This document shows, in pieces, positions 11,211-37,607 of a stretch of DNA of 64,000 nt. Position 1 is the first letter of the stretch. Every line of letters starts with the position of its first letter. The notes under the pieces were generated by a model, which had not been told where the DNA came from, did no database searches, and saw only the letters and a program-made list of their open reading frames with translations. The stretch lies in contig SVAS01000002.1 of the NCBI GenBank assembly GCA_015059285.1, positions 66,572-130,571 on the forward strand, in the 5' to 3' direction. A program made the translations under genes and the position numbers. Source of the DNA: Bacillota bacterium. Its GTDB lineage: Bacteria > Bacillota_I > Bacilli_A > RF39 > UBA660.

Positions 11211-11232
11211 AAAAGCAGAAAACTGCTTTTAT
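11211..11232 (-). terminator. Rho-independent terminator after noc/parB
   Basis: Minus strand AAAAGCAGTTTTCTGCTTTTTTT. Confidence 0.75.
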
Positions 11233-12911
11233 TTGTTTATTTTAAAGATTACTTGATACATATCTTCAAAATCAAATTCTTCGGTATCTACTATATATCC
11301 CATTCTACTTAATTGTGCATCTAAGTCTCTAACCATATTAATAGCATTTTTTAAATTGCTTCCTGGGTTTACATAATTTACAACAGGTGGTTGATTATGA
11401 TTAATTTCTGGCATTTCTTCTTTTTCATTTAAAGTTGGAAATTCTAATTCTGCAATTGTATCTGAATAAAGATTAGGATCTGGTTCTACTGGAATTGGAT
11501 TTTCATGAATAGGATTATAATTATTTAATGGGTTTAAAACTGGTTGTGGCTCTATGTTTTGACTTTGCGTACTTTCTACAACAACATTGTTTTCTTCTTT
11601 ATTTTCAATAGTTAATGATTGTTGTGGATTTTCTAAATTTTCTAAAGATGGCAGATTGTTAACTGCTTCTACATTATTTAAACTACTTACATCTAAATTG
11701 AAATCAAAAGAACTTGCTTCCTCTTTTTTTACTTCTTCTTCCTCTGGAAATAAATTAAAGAATTTGCCTGGAACTAAAATGTCTTCAGCTCCCTCACTTT
11801 CTTCTTCAGTTTCTACTGGTAAAACTGGTGGAATTATATCTTGAGATGGTTCTAATAAATTTTCAACAGGGGCTAAAGGTTTTTCTGTGAAAATATCAGT
11901 CGCTTCCTTTTCTATTTTATTTATATCCATAAAACCAGGGTTATTAATATTTCTATCTTGTAATTCTTGTGGATTTTCTACAATCGGTTGCATTGGAATA
12001 TCCATTTTTGGTAAATCTAAGTTAGAATCTGTACTAGAAGTTAAGTTAAGTTCTTCTAAAGGTTCTTCAAAAACAGAAGTAGGTACTGGAGGAACTTTTG
12101 GTACTATAACTTCAGGGGTTGGATTAAATATAGCGGTCTTTTCTTCTGTTGGTAATACTTCTGGTATTTCATTGCCAACTATTGGTTGCGTTGGAATATT
12201 TAATGTTTCTATATTAGGACTAAAAACTTCTAAAGGTTCTACATTTAATTTTTCTACTTCATTTTTTTGTTCTATTGGTTGATTAAAGTTTAAAACTTCC
12301 ACATTATTATCATTATTAAGCATTTTATCAATCTCCTCATCAGTCTTTCTTACTGTTAATCTTTCGTTAATTATTTTTGTTAACAATTCTCTTTGCTTGT
12401 CTTGACTGGTTAATCTTAATAAAGAGCGGGCATGTCTTTCTGATATTTGTTCATTTAATAAAGCTTCTTGAACATCATCATCTAAATTCAATAAACGTAA
12501 TTTGTTAGCAATGGTTGATTGTGTCTTTCCTAATTTACTTGCCAAAATATCTTGAGTTAAATATCCCATATCTAAAATTTTCTTATAAGATATAGCTTCT
12601 TCTATTGGAGTTAAATCTTTTCTTTGAACATTTTCTATTAGGGCAACTTCTGCACTATCTTTTTCACTTAAGTCAGTAATAATAGCAGGAATTGTTGTTT
12701 TGCCAGCTAAAACACTTGCTTTATATCTTCTTTCTCCAGCAATTATTTCATATTTATCTCCAATTTTTCTTACTACAATCGGCTGAATAACACCATGACC
12801 TTTTATTGAATTAGCGAGCTCTTGAATAGATGCTTCACTAAATTTGATTCTAGGTTGAAACCTATTAGGCAATACATCATTTAAATCTAGTTCTACTACT
12901 TTTGTTTCCAT
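11229..12911 (-). CDS. noc: ParB-family nucleoid occlusion protein Noc-like, with long acidic/Pro-rich insertion
   Basis: VLPNRFQPRIKFSE, GHGVIQPIVVR, IAGERRYKA, LGKTQSTIANKLRLLNL, ISERHARSL; gene directly downstream of rsmG as noc is in Bacillus. Confidence 0.88.
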   Translation of the reverse strand: METKVVELDLNDVLPNRFQPRIKFSEASIQELANSIKGHGVIQPIVVRKIGDKYEIIAGERRYKASVLAGKTTIPAIITDLSEKDSAEVALIENVQRKDLTPIEEAISYKKILDMGYLTQDILASKLGKTQSTIANKLRLLNLDDDVQEALLNEQISERHARSLLRLTSQDKQRELLTKIINERLTVRKTDEEIDKMLNNDNNVEVLNFNQPIEQKNEVEKLNVEPLEVFSPNIETLNIPTQPIVGNEIPEVLPTEEKTAIFNPTPEVIVPKVPPVPTSVFEEPLEELNLTSSTDSNLDLPKMDIPMQPIVENPQELQDRNINNPGFMDINKIEKEATDIFTEKPLAPVENLLEPSQDIIPPVLPVETEEESEGAEDILVPGKFFNLFPEEEEVKKEEASSFDFNLDVSSLNNVEAVNNLPSLENLENPQQSLTIENKEENNVVVESTQSQNIEPQPVLNPLNNYNPIHENPIPVEPDPNLYSDTIAELEFPTLNEKEEMPEINHNQPPVVNYVNPGSNLKNAINMVRDLDAQLSRMGYIVDTEEFDFEDMYQVIFKINK

Positions 12912-12921
12912 ACAAAAACAT

Positions 12922-12990
12922 CCCTTCTTTATTCTTCTATATCTATAATACTATATCTTGGGAAATAATTCAAGAAAATATTTCCCAAAT
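12922..12990 (-). promoter_or_regulatory. noc promoter with overlapping inverted repeat TTGGGAAATA/TATTTCCCAA
   Basis: Minus strand TTGAAT-N17-TATTAT; perfect 10-bp inverted repeat at 12958-12967 / 12979-12988. Confidence 0.6.
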
Positions 12991-13046: not shown

Positions 13047-13733
13047 AATTTCACTAAACTTTCTAGGATATTTATTGTTTGTTTTAGCGCTTTTTCTGAT
13101 TTTTAAAATTGTTCTTATACTTTCCTCTTTTGGTAGTTTAAACTCTTGATTTGTAATAATTTCTGAATTTAAAATTTTTAAGGCTGTTTTGCTTTCTATT
13201 ATTTCCTGGGAAATGTTGGCCTTCATTGGCAAAAAGAACCCGCCTTCTTTTAACATAGGCACTATGTATTCTAATAATATATTTAAAGGCGCAACTGCTC
13301 TTGCGGTTGCTAAATCATACTTTTCACGATTTTCTTTAGCATAATCTTCACTTCTTGCGTGAATTGCTTCTATATCTTTTAAATCAAGTTCTTTAATTAC
13401 CAATTTTAAAAACTCTATTCTTTTATTTAAAGAATCTAATAAAGTTATTTTTAATTTTGGAAAGGCTATTTTTAAAACAATTCCAGGAAACCCTGCTCCT
13501 GTACCAACATCAACTAATGTTAATTCTTGGTCTAAATCAATTACTTTATTAAGTGTTAAAGAATCATAGAAATGTTTTAAATACACTTGCTCTTTTTCTA
13601 TAATTGCTGTTAAATTAATTTTTTGGTTCCACTCAACTAATAATTCATAATATTTTTCTAGTTGATTTAATTGGTTTGAATTTAAAATTATATCCAAATT
13701 TAATATTTCATTTATAAATTCTTTTTCTGTCAT
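13029..13733 (-). CDS. rsmG: 16S rRNA (guanine527-N7)-methyltransferase
   Basis: [19 protein letters not shown] motif; next to mnmG. Confidence 0.96.
13201..13214. promoter_or_regulatory. Noc-binding-site-like palindrome ATTTCCTGGGAAAT
   Basis: 13/14 match to Bacillus NBS consensus ATTTCCCGGGAAAT. Confidence 0.6.
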
Positions 13734-21318: not shown

Positions 21319-21344
21319 TAAAAAACCACTGAAACTCAGTGGTG
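21319..21344 (-). terminator. Terminator between rpmH and rnpA
   Basis: Minus strand ACCACTGAGTTTCAGTGGTTTTTT. Confidence 0.75.
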
Positions 21345-21351
21345 TATTATT

Positions 21352-21474
21352 TTAGTGTGCTAATACTTTACGACCTTTTCTTCTTCTTCTTTTTATAATC
21401 GATGTCTTAGTACGTGCTAAAAATCCTATTTTTTTACTTCTTTTTCTATTATTTGGTTGATAAGTTCTTTTCAT
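21352..21474 (-). CDS. rpmH: 50S ribosomal protein L34 (40 aa, not in the ORF track)
   Basis: Minus strand [40 protein letters not shown]. Confidence 0.95.
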
Positions 21475-21479
21475 TGTCA

Positions 21480-21850
21480 CACCTCCTGAACTAAAAAAAT
21501 TTTTCGTTGCTCAATTAATTATATAGATAAAAGTCATTTTTGTCAAATATTTTTTTCTTTATTTTTATTATTGTTGAAAACTTTTGGGAAATAATACAAT
21601 TTTTGCTATATTTTTTATTTTTTCCACCAAAACCAACATTTTTTTCATATTATCTTATAATAGTTAATTCTATTTTTACACATAAGTGTGGAAAAATTAT
21701 TAACTTTTAAATGTTCAAAACTTTTTTTCCACTTTTTTGTGGATATAAGCGGTTTAATCTTATTTTATAACAAATTTTTTCCACAAATCTTATTTTTTTA
21801 TTGGCTTTTTTGATTTTTTAATGTAAAATGAGGTTAACGGGGATTGTGGG
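21480..21850. other. oriC: oriC, rpmH-dnaA intergenic part (DnaA-box-like TTTTCCACA/TGTGGAAAA)
   Basis: TGTGGAAAA 21687-21695, TGTGGATAT 21738-21746, TTTTCCACA 21777-21785; gene polarity switches here. Confidence 0.8.
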
Positions 21851-21859
21851 GTGAATGGT

Positions 21860-30751: not shown

Positions 30752-30815
30752 TAAATACTAATGTTCCACGTGAAACTATAAATACTAATGTTCCACGTGA
30801 AACTATAAATACTAA
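30752..30815. repeat. Tandem 27-bp repeat carrying two parS sites (TGTTCCACGTGAAACT at 30762-30777 and 30789-30804)
   Basis: TAAATACTAATGTTCCACGTGAAACTA x2 plus trailing partial TAAATACTAA; core is one substitution from the parS palindrome TGTTTCACGTGAAACA inner region. Confidence 0.9.
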
Positions 30816-31460: not shown

Positions 31461-33170
31461 ATGTATCAAGCTTTGTATAGAAAATATAGACCTTTAACTT
31501 TTGATGAAGTTGTTGGACAAGATGTTATCATTAGGACATTAAAGAATGCTGTTTTAAACAAAAAAATATCTCATGCTTATTTGTTTACAGGGCCAAGAGG
31601 AACAGGAAAAACAACTATTGCAAAAATCTTGGCTAAAACCATAAATTGTTTAAATTTAAACGATATGACGCCTTGTAACAACTGTGTAAGTTGTACACAA
31701 ATCAATCAAAAACAATCAACAGATATAGTGGAAATAGATGCTGCATCAAACAATGGCGTCGATGAAATACGTGAAATAAGAAATAAGGTGAATTTAGTAC
31801 CTTCTATTAGTAAATACAAAGTATATATTATTGATGAAGTTCATATGCTTACAACAGGCGCTTTTAATGCTTTATTAAAAACATTAGAAGAACCACCATC
31901 ACATATTATATTCATATTAGCAACTACAGAACCACATAAAATTCCTGCCACAATATTATCTCGTTGTCAAAGATTTGATTTTAAAAGAATTTCATCAAAT
32001 AAACTTGTAGAAAGATTAGAATTTATTAGTAAACAAGAAAAAATAGATATAGATAAACAAGCTTTGTTTGAAATATCTCGTATATCCGAAGGCGGAATGA
32101 GAGATGCTATAAGTATGTTAGATCAAGTTCTTTCATACTCTGAAGGGATGGTAACTCTAGAGGATGTACATGAGGTAAACGGAACGTTATCTCAAAAAGA
32201 CCTGGGTGAATTTATTGAAAATATTTTTGATAAGAACATTTTAGAAGTATTAAAATTGATAGATAAATATAATGATTTAGGGAAAAACATTATAAAATTA
32301 TCTGAAGAAATAATACAACTGTTAAAAAATATATTATTATATAAAACGGTTCCTAATTACTTTGATGATAAAGAATTAGAAGCTTTATATGAACGATTAG
32401 GAAATAATACGAAAGTAGAACATTTAATTAATTTGATAGACGAATTTAATAATAGTTTACCAAAATTAAAACAAAGTAATGATCCTAAACTTATTTTAGA
32501 ACTTTTAGTAATAAAATATATTAGTACTAACAATGAAATAAAAGTTCAAAATTCAGAACAAATTATAGAAAAAAAACAAGAAGTCAGTTCTAAAATAGAA
32601 CAAATAGATAAAATAAAAAAAGAAAAAGTAAAAAAAGAAACTAGTTTAGAACAAAAAGAAGAAAAGAAGATACAAGAAAATAAAACTTTAGAAAAAACAG
32701 ATGAATTTCATAAAAAAATTGATGAATTAAAAAACATAAGAATAAATAATACTTTAGCTGAGTTTAATAAACAGCACTTTTTATTTATAAAAGAGGAACT
32801 GGATAATATTAAAGATATGTTATTAAATCCTGATTATAGCGAATTTGTATCAACAATATTGGACGGTACATTAAAAGCCGCGAGTGATAAAAATTTAATT
32901 TTTGTATACAACACAGACACACTTTCAAATTATTTTAATGAAAATTTATTAATTATAGAAGAAATATTAGAAAACAATTACAATAAACATTATGACGCAA
33001 TAGCTGTTGATAATATTTCCTGGGAAATAATAAAGAAAGAATTTAATAGTAAAAGTAAACTATACGTATATCAAAAGGAAACTATTGATATCAAAGATTT
33101 GTTTAGTTCTCCAAAAGAAAGTGATGAATTAAATGATTTATTTGGAGAAATAATTGAAATTGTTAATTAG
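31461..33170 (+). CDS. dnaX: DNA polymerase III subunit gamma/tau
   Basis: YRKYRPLTFDEVVGQ, GPRGTGKTTIAKI, CNNCVSC zinc motif. Confidence 0.98.
   Translation: MYQALYRKYRPLTFDEVVGQDVIIRTLKNAVLNKKISHAYLFTGPRGTGKTTIAKILAKTINCLNLNDMTPCNNCVSCTQINQKQSTDIVEIDAASNNGVDEIREIRNKVNLVPSISKYKVYIIDEVHMLTTGAFNALLKTLEEPPSHIIFILATTEPHKIPATILSRCQRFDFKRISSNKLVERLEFISKQEKIDIDKQALFEISRISEGGMRDAISMLDQVLSYSEGMVTLEDVHEVNGTLSQKDLGEFIENIFDKNILEVLKLIDKYNDLGKNIIKLSEEIIQLLKNILLYKTVPNYFDDKELEALYERLGNNTKVEHLINLIDEFNNSLPKLKQSNDPKLILELLVIKYISTNNEIKVQNSEQIIEKKQEVSSKIEQIDKIKKEKVKKETSLEQKEEKKIQENKTLEKTDEFHKKIDELKNIRINNTLAEFNKQHFLFIKEELDNIKDMLLNPDYSEFVSTILDGTLKAASDKNLIFVYNTDTLSNYFNENLLIIEEILENNYNKHYDAIAVDNISWEIIKKEFNSKSKLYVYQKETIDIKDLFSSPKESDELNDLFGEIIEIVN
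33015..33028. promoter_or_regulatory. Noc-binding-site-like palindrome ATTTCCTGGGAAAT
   Basis: 13/14 match to NBS consensus, identical to the 13201 site. Confidence 0.6.
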
Positions 33171-36770: not shown

Positions 36771-37607
36771 ATGTCTCAAAAGAGTTATAATAATACTCCT
36801 ACTTTGTATTTAATTCCAACACCTATCGGAAATATGGAAGATATCACTTTAAGAGCTATAAACGCTTTAAAAGAAGTAGAAGTTATTTTTTCAGAAGATA
36901 CAAGAGTTACAGGAATTTTATTAAAACATTTAGATATAAAGAAAAAATTAATTGCTAATCATGAACATAATGAACAAAAGAATTGTGAAATAGCTTTGTC
37001 TTATTTAAAAGATGGATATAATATAGGGTTAGTAACAGATAGAGGAACGCCAATAATTAGTGATCCTGGATATGGGATTGCAAAATTTATTATAGAACAT
37101 GGTTATAATGTAGTGGGTTTGCCTGGACCTACGGCTTTAATTCCAGCACTTATAGTATCAGGACTTAATCCTTCACCTTTTTTATTTTATGGATTTTTAA
37201 ATAATAAAGAACAAAAACGTATAAAAGAACTTGAAAGTTTAAAAAATATAAAAGCAACTCTAATTTTTTATGAGGCTCCTCATCGTTTGGAAAAAACATT
37301 AGATAATATGTTAAAAGTTTTGGGAAATAGAAATATTAGTATTTCCCGGGAAATAAGTAAGCGATATGAAGAAGTTTATCGTGGACAAATAGATGACATC
37401 AAAAAACAAATAGTAGACGCTAAGGGTGAATTTGTAATTGTTGTAGATGGTGATAACACTATAAAAACTTATGACAATTTGACAATTGATGAACATATTA
37501 ACCTTTATTTAGCGGAAGATATGAAGTTAATGGATGCCATAAAAAAAGTAGCTAAAGAAAGAAATGTTAGTAAAAGTGATATTTATAATGAATATCATAA
37601 AAGGTAG
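36771..37607 (+). CDS. rsmI: 16S rRNA 2'-O-ribose C1402 methyltransferase
   Basis: LYLIPTPIGNMEDITLRAI, LVTDRGTPIISDPG. Confidence 0.95.
   Translation: MSQKSYNNTPTLYLIPTPIGNMEDITLRAINALKEVEVIFSEDTRVTGILLKHLDIKKKLIANHEHNEQKNCEIALSYLKDGYNIGLVTDRGTPIISDPGYGIAKFIIEHGYNVVGLPGPTALIPALIVSGLNPSPFLFYGFLNNKEQKRIKELESLKNIKATLIFYEAPHRLEKTLDNMLKVLGNRNISISREISKRYEEVYRGQIDDIKKQIVDAKGEFVIVVDGDNTIKTYDNLTIDEHINLYLAEDMKLMDAIKKVAKERNVSKSDIYNEYHKR
37341..37354. promoter_or_regulatory. Perfect Noc-binding-site consensus ATTTCCCGGGAAAT inside rsmI
   Basis: 14/14 match; only CCCGGG noticed in the window. Confidence 0.75.

Follow-up and report, generated by a model that had tools for sequence, protein, structure and literature searches.

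A long-linker Noc with a candidate internal membrane-targeting motif and NBS around oriC in small-genome gut Bacilli

We found that a 64,000-nucleotide stretch of DNA (hereafter the window) from a Bacillota bacterium encodes a variant of Noc whose membrane-binding motif may well have been relocated into a long disordered linker, and which would act on the origin-proximal domain of the chromosome in cells lacking Min. We give this reading a probability of roughly 0.58. The evidence comes from the identity of the protein, from the family-wide loss of the N-terminal anchor, from two conserved motifs in the linker and from the crowding of NBS around oriC. The open-access papers searched contained no earlier account of a Noc with a long linker.

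Identity and domain layout of the noc product

The gene and its product are organized as follows:
11229..12911, minus strand: noc, 560 aa (stop codon at 11229-11231)
12312..12911, minus strand: ParB-type N-terminal CTP domain and HTH DNA-binding domain (residues 1-200)
11367..12311, minus strand: acidic, Pro/Asn/Glu-rich disordered linker (residues 201-515)
11232..11366, minus strand: C-terminal domain, homologous to the Noc C-terminal dimerisation domain (residues 516-560)

In a profile search, residues 4-198 matched ParB_N and HTH_ParB, and the CTP motifs GERR (59-62) and ENVQR (93-97) are kept among orthologs. The specificity residues read Q131/K137/N142/R159, where Q131 and R159 are base-reading, K137 is permissive and N142 is the equivalent of position 184. 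A first-pass annotation, made from the window's letters, had called the protein Noc on these grounds; the identity and the Q/K/N/R reading stand, but the published NBS-specificity set is Q/K/K/R, in which a single lysine at 179 or 184 is enough (PMC7383237). The equivalents of Q173 and R201 are both present, together with Lys/Arg at 179 or 184, as NBS reading requires. Among NCBIfam models, Noc (TIGR04285) ranked first for the 560-aa protein (E 1.1e-83), with a full-length score below the curated cut-off (280.6 versus 315 bits); the match stops at residue 203, as is expected given the long linker. The nearest solved proteins by sequence are Geobacillus and Bacillus Noc (crystal structures 7nfu/7ng0), and the nearest PDB fold is also Noc, with 53% identity to 7nfu. 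A profile-profile comparison of the C-terminal 45 residues with the C-terminal domains of Noc in other Bacilli families gave a match at probability 97.3 and E 2e-11. The genes mnmE, mnmG and rsmG lie upstream on the same strand, in agreement with the rsmG-noc order noted before. It is thus well supported that the protein is a true Noc ortholog, predicted to act as a DNA clamp that depends on CTP and is loaded at NBS.

The possibility that it is instead a second ParB working at parS was also considered. The ParB fold is shared, and two parS-like sites lie 18 kb away:
30762..30804, plus strand: TGTTCCACGTGAAACT, a parS-like site in two direct copies 27 bp apart (30762 and 30789), downstream of gyrA

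These two sites are presumably used by a canonical ParB. A parA gene and a parB gene (296 aa) occupy G000:C1:64.3-65.9 kb (parB at 64.3-65.1), a short way to the left of C1:66572, where the window starts, so that the protein, although described earlier as the lone member of its family, has a neighbor immediately beyond the window's edge. The canonical ParB carries the R..G specificity residues, whereas the combination of R173/G201 with an adjacent parA was not found for noc. Given the Q/R pair at both base-reading positions, the best match to Noc by sequence and by structure, the Noc-type C-terminal domain, the separate parA-parB pair and the strong over-representation of NBS, a second ParB is very improbable. 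Two further open frames with a ParB_N domain were seen in the same genome (G000:C3:180885 and C3:551455; 182 and 334 aa).

AlphaFold block means exceeded 80 over residues 1-200 and 90 over residues 521-560, the latter in line with the short folded C-terminus described at first pass. Most of the region ~201-515 had low values (31-60), the exception being residues 331-350 (77-80). The acidic disordered segment placed earlier at about residues 205-515 is therefore mostly of low confidence as proposed, but it holds two conserved motifs, one of them predicted to be helical.

The window's genome comprises 1.04 Mb in five contigs, and its nearest named relatives are uncultured, mostly gut, Bacilli/Mycoplasmatota metagenome-assembled genomes, including Candidatus Pelethosoma and Candidatus Faecisoma. 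In a ParB-domain tree (FastTree), the long-linker Noc family is monophyletic with three clades (support 99). With positive controls in place, MinC (PF03775) was absent from all 14 family genomes searched, including the window's. SepF was found in 13 of these 14 genomes, and the SepF sequences that were read have a typical anchor at the N-terminus. Noc was not found in five genomes of 91-96% completeness (G001, which belongs to the window's genus, G026, G089, G103 and G112), three of which also lacked exact NBS.

Missing N-terminal anchor and conserved linker motifs

The ParB fold of the window's Noc begins at residue ~4, with no helix ahead of it. An in-frame stop lies 13 codons upstream, with no ATG, GTG or TTG in between, and family orthologs start 13-22 residues ahead of PNRFQPR. 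An N-terminal amphipathic membrane-targeting helix was absent from every family ortholog examined, which makes this protein a variant and not a typical Noc. The earlier statement that the N-terminus has no membrane helix was thus confirmed and can be extended to a start position shared across the family; an upstream in-frame start encoding a helix, which had been named beforehand as a refuting condition, does not exist before the stop. A hidden helix behind an alternative start was rejected on the basis of the upstream frame and the starts in ~110 orthologs.

With one exception, Noc proteins of other Bacilli families have ~254-306 aa, and many of them open with anchors of the MNIFSNNKEK, VFNIFSRDDS, MFNLFTRDA or MGLFDFLG type, HRVFSFFSKDD being another example. 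Some short Noc of other families (~260-275 aa; L245, L249, L250, L254, L255, L260 and L261) start at the ParB fold without a visible anchor, which suggests that the anchor may simply be dispensable. In another Bacilli family, the Noc of L262 (G219:C1:112000-116261) has 681 aa, an N-terminal MALFNRKDK anchor and an acidic C-terminal tail of ~400 aa that closes with GFWNLFK. This is an independent case of a long extension, here with an anchor-like terminus.

The linker, first taken as a ~300-aa insertion peculiar to the window's Noc, is a family-wide trait, with a median length of 285 aa in 97 complete orthologs and a range of 76-537 in 148 sequences. A frameshift or a single bad assembly was ruled out as its source by dozens of unbroken orthologous frames from independent genomes. 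Its composition is rich in N, P and E. Two conserved motifs stand out:
11889..11942, minus strand: linker motif 1, NPGFMDINKIEKEATDIF (residues 324-341; pLDDT ~77-80, short helix)
11733..11771, minus strand: linker motif 2, PGKFFNLFPEEEE (residues 381-393), a putative membrane-targeting motif inside the linker

The full pattern of motif 2 is [GN][KR]F[FI]N, two hydrophobic residues and then acidic residues. [KR]FF was present in 61 of the 97 linkers versus 2.6 expected and a maximum of 8 in shuffled linkers, and [KR]F[FI]N in 53 of 97 versus 0.7 in shuffles; the control patterns FF[KR] and [DE]FF never occurred in the 97 linkers, at or below expectation. As [KR]F[FI], motif 2 was identified in 65 of 79 sequences of the window's clade and in 14 of 29 and 20 of 40 of the other two. 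Its presence in all three clades suggests that it is probably ancestral, although roughly one third of all linkers in the family, and half of those in two clades out of three, have no recognisable motif 2. It is short and acid-flanked, has a single basic residue, and showed no AlphaFold helix in the models of the window's Noc and an ortholog.

Several observations suggest that motif 2 may be a membrane anchor. First, the N-terminal segment of B. subtilis Noc is KHSFSRFFGLGEKEEE, whose order basic-F-F-small-L-acidic is that of motif 2 (KFFNLFPEEEE). Second, motif 2 looks like the anchors listed above for Noc of other Bacilli (VFNIFSRDDS, MFNLFTRDA and HRVFSFFSKDD) and like those with which SepF of the family's genomes begins (MGLNIKKWFKEEDED in the window's genome). 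Its hydrophobic moment is similar to those of known anchors, although this measure did not discriminate decisively. Third, when a matrix built on motif 2 was run over 27 outgroup Noc, the top hit lay ahead of the fold in 13 of them versus ~2 expected, with low scores; the matrix also scored >8 in 52 of 102 'other' ParB-like open frames, a set that contains unclassified Noc, and this absolute score was therefore not used. Finally, B. subtilis Noc binds the membrane via its first ten residues, of which K2, F5, R7, F8 and F9 were mutated, and its function requires DNA and membrane binding at once, a foreign amphipathic helix being able to substitute for its own (PMC4331003). We infer from this sequence evidence that motif 2 may be a membrane-binding motif that moved from the N-terminus into the linker. 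The suggestion that membrane recruitment may have been rewired thus gains support from a conserved anchor-like motif and a missing N-terminal anchor.

Motif 1 was seen in the window's clade alone, where 59 of 79 sequences have it; the 69 sequences of the other two clades do not. It is sharply conserved (NPGF..D..KIE..A.DI) and is the sole part of the linker with raised AlphaFold confidence, weaker in an ortholog (~71). Within the clade, its order and spacing relative to motif 2 (mostly 45-90 aa) are kept. Searches returned no match among solved structures, and only noc among the proteins of the same genome. Most likely, though only tentatively, motif 1 would dock a partner or the folded part of Noc itself.

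Protein binding by motif 2 is the main rival to membrane binding. Both motifs could be short linear motifs without direct membrane contact, with a membrane or divisome protein (SepF, FtsA, FtsZ or another) recruiting Noc via motif 2 and/or motif 1. Conservation does concern particular residues and not just hydrophobic character, with Gly/Asn ahead of Lys/Arg and Asn following FF, and in one subgroup the EDEAANMNM that follows motif 2, with its AANMNM tail, is conserved residue by residue, which suits protein as well as lipid binding. The sharp pattern and raised confidence of motif 1 fit as well, and the Noc proteins of S. aureus and B. subtilis are not interchangeable despite using the same sites, which implies species-specific partners (PMC5540599). 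However, B. subtilis Noc has no known partner and an unrelated helix can replace its anchor (PMC4331003), motif 2 has the basic-aromatic-aromatic-acidic layout of known anchors, and motif 1 occurs in no second protein of the genome. On balance, we consider recruitment by a protein unlikely, while giving it a substantial minority share.

A linker acting merely as a passive entropic spacer or condensate-promoting segment, in which the two motifs serve as stickers with no particular partner, seems improbable. Its N/P/E-rich composition and very variable length would suit such a role, as would the repeat expansion in one ortholog; however, motifs 1 and 2 are conserved far above composition, and their order and spacing are maintained. 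The ortholog in question, the Noc of L020, has tandem PSFETPVEQQPMEPVM repeats in its disordered linker.

NBS, half-sites and the origin domain

The relevant elements of the window are:
12951..12967, minus strand: TATTTCCCAAGATATAG in the noc promoter, a degenerate half-NBS flanked by -35 TTGAAT and -10 TATTAT
12979-12986, plus strand: second half-site of the promoter region, TATTTCCC
13202..13213, unstranded: NBS TTTCCTGGGAAA, inside rsmG
21330..21850, unstranded: oriC region between rnpA/rpmH and dnaA, with a switch in GC skew sign and a half-NBS at 21586
33016..33027, unstranded: NBS TTTCCTGGGAAA, inside dnaX
37340..37355, unstranded: NBS TATTTCCCGGGAAATA, a perfect palindrome, inside an rsmI-like gene

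The position of oriC was assigned by dnaA at 21851 and the GC-skew switch. Counting NBS at no more than one mismatch to TTTCCCGGGAAA, we identified three in the window's genome, all within 24 kb (chance about 0.0016) and ~8, 11 and 16 kb from the oriC/dnaA region. Across 117 genomes, TTTCCYGGGAAA gave 276 forward matches versus 2 for the reversed pattern. Most family genomes have 1-8 exact NBS, one having 22. Among the matches listed, all 77 NBS on the same contig as noc were within 33 kb of it; these include sites on a 1.04-Mb contig and in a single-contig 1.3-Mb genome, and fragmented genomes have NBS on other contigs too. Genomes without Noc tended to lack NBS (Fisher P 0.002).

Half-sites showed the same trend. 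TATTTCCC occurred 19 times in the 52 kb around oriC, where its frequency in the 560 kb of contig C3 that was read would predict 1.0; TATTTCCCA, which crowds the origin domain, was present just twice in that 560 kb. In the window as a whole, 20 copies of TATTTCCC were found (3033-51134) versus 3.5 expected from shuffles, densest around oriC, with the 560 kb of C3 nearly free of them. Exact and half-NBS are thus concentrated within tens of kb around oriC in the window's genome, and relative to noc in its relatives, with degenerate NBS possible elsewhere. From this distribution, DNA binding by Noc seems to be confined to the surroundings of the replication origin.

The noc promoter has sites of its own. 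In the window (12940-12990) and in orthologs, it contains one or two TATTTCCCAA boxes, one of them in the -35/-10 spacer. TTTCCCA was found upstream of noc in 70 of 78 cases in the window's clade and in none of 69 elsewhere; its position between -35 and -10 in the window suggests autoregulation, and the half-site is likely an autoregulatory operator.

Noc would load at NBS near oriC and slide with CTP across the origin domain, which it would coat because NBS and half-NBS are concentrated there. If motif 2 does bind membrane, its weak contacts, repeated over many flexible linkers, would hold this domain to the membrane in a multivalent way. Such tethering would keep the divisome off freshly replicated origins in cells without MinC. 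With no N-terminal helix to restrain, CTP control would act by clustering on DNA or by motif 1 docking. A broader proposal is that in all of this small-genome lineage of gut Bacilli Noc ceased to occlude division chromosome-wide and became an origin-domain membrane tether, with a CTP clamp, a compact field of NBS and half-NBS around oriC, mid-linker anchors and, in one clade, an extra docking motif; we regard this as tentative, with somewhat less than an even chance of being correct.

Comparison with known systems

Noc is a textbook CTP switch, in which CTP is thought to release an N-terminal helix held against the ParB domain. Here the helix is gone and a look-alike lies ~180 residues past the DNA-binding domain, so that the need for an autoinhibitory helix in CTP control of membrane binding becomes testable. 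Likewise, a compact origin-proximal NBS field sets anchoring of the origin apart from occlusion of division across the entire nucleoid, in cells without MinC.

Canonical ParB/Spo0J has a common ancestry and clamp mechanism with Noc but differs in its R..G residues, parS sites, ParA partner and short linker. The Noc proteins of B. subtilis and Geobacillus thermoleovorans (TIGR04285; PDB 7nfu, 7ng0, 7ol9 and 6y93) share with the window's Noc the ParB fold, CTP motifs, Q/R base-reading residues, genomic NBS, rsmG neighbor and homologous C-terminal domain, whereas the latter lacks the N-terminal amphipathic helix and alpha2 and carries two conserved motifs in a disordered linker of 315 aa. Exact NBS in the window's genome lie only within ~16 kb of oriC, whereas those of B. 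subtilis cover the origin-proximal two-thirds of the chromosome (PMC5540599). S. aureus Noc also works without a Min system and has the same NBS core; its NBS favor the half of the chromosome that contains the origin, with 40 of 41 loci lying within 700 kb of ori (PMC5540599). However, its domain layout differs, and its 41 sites are spread over ~1.4 Mb, whereas the exact sites of the long-linker family are clustered within tens of kb of noc/oriC.
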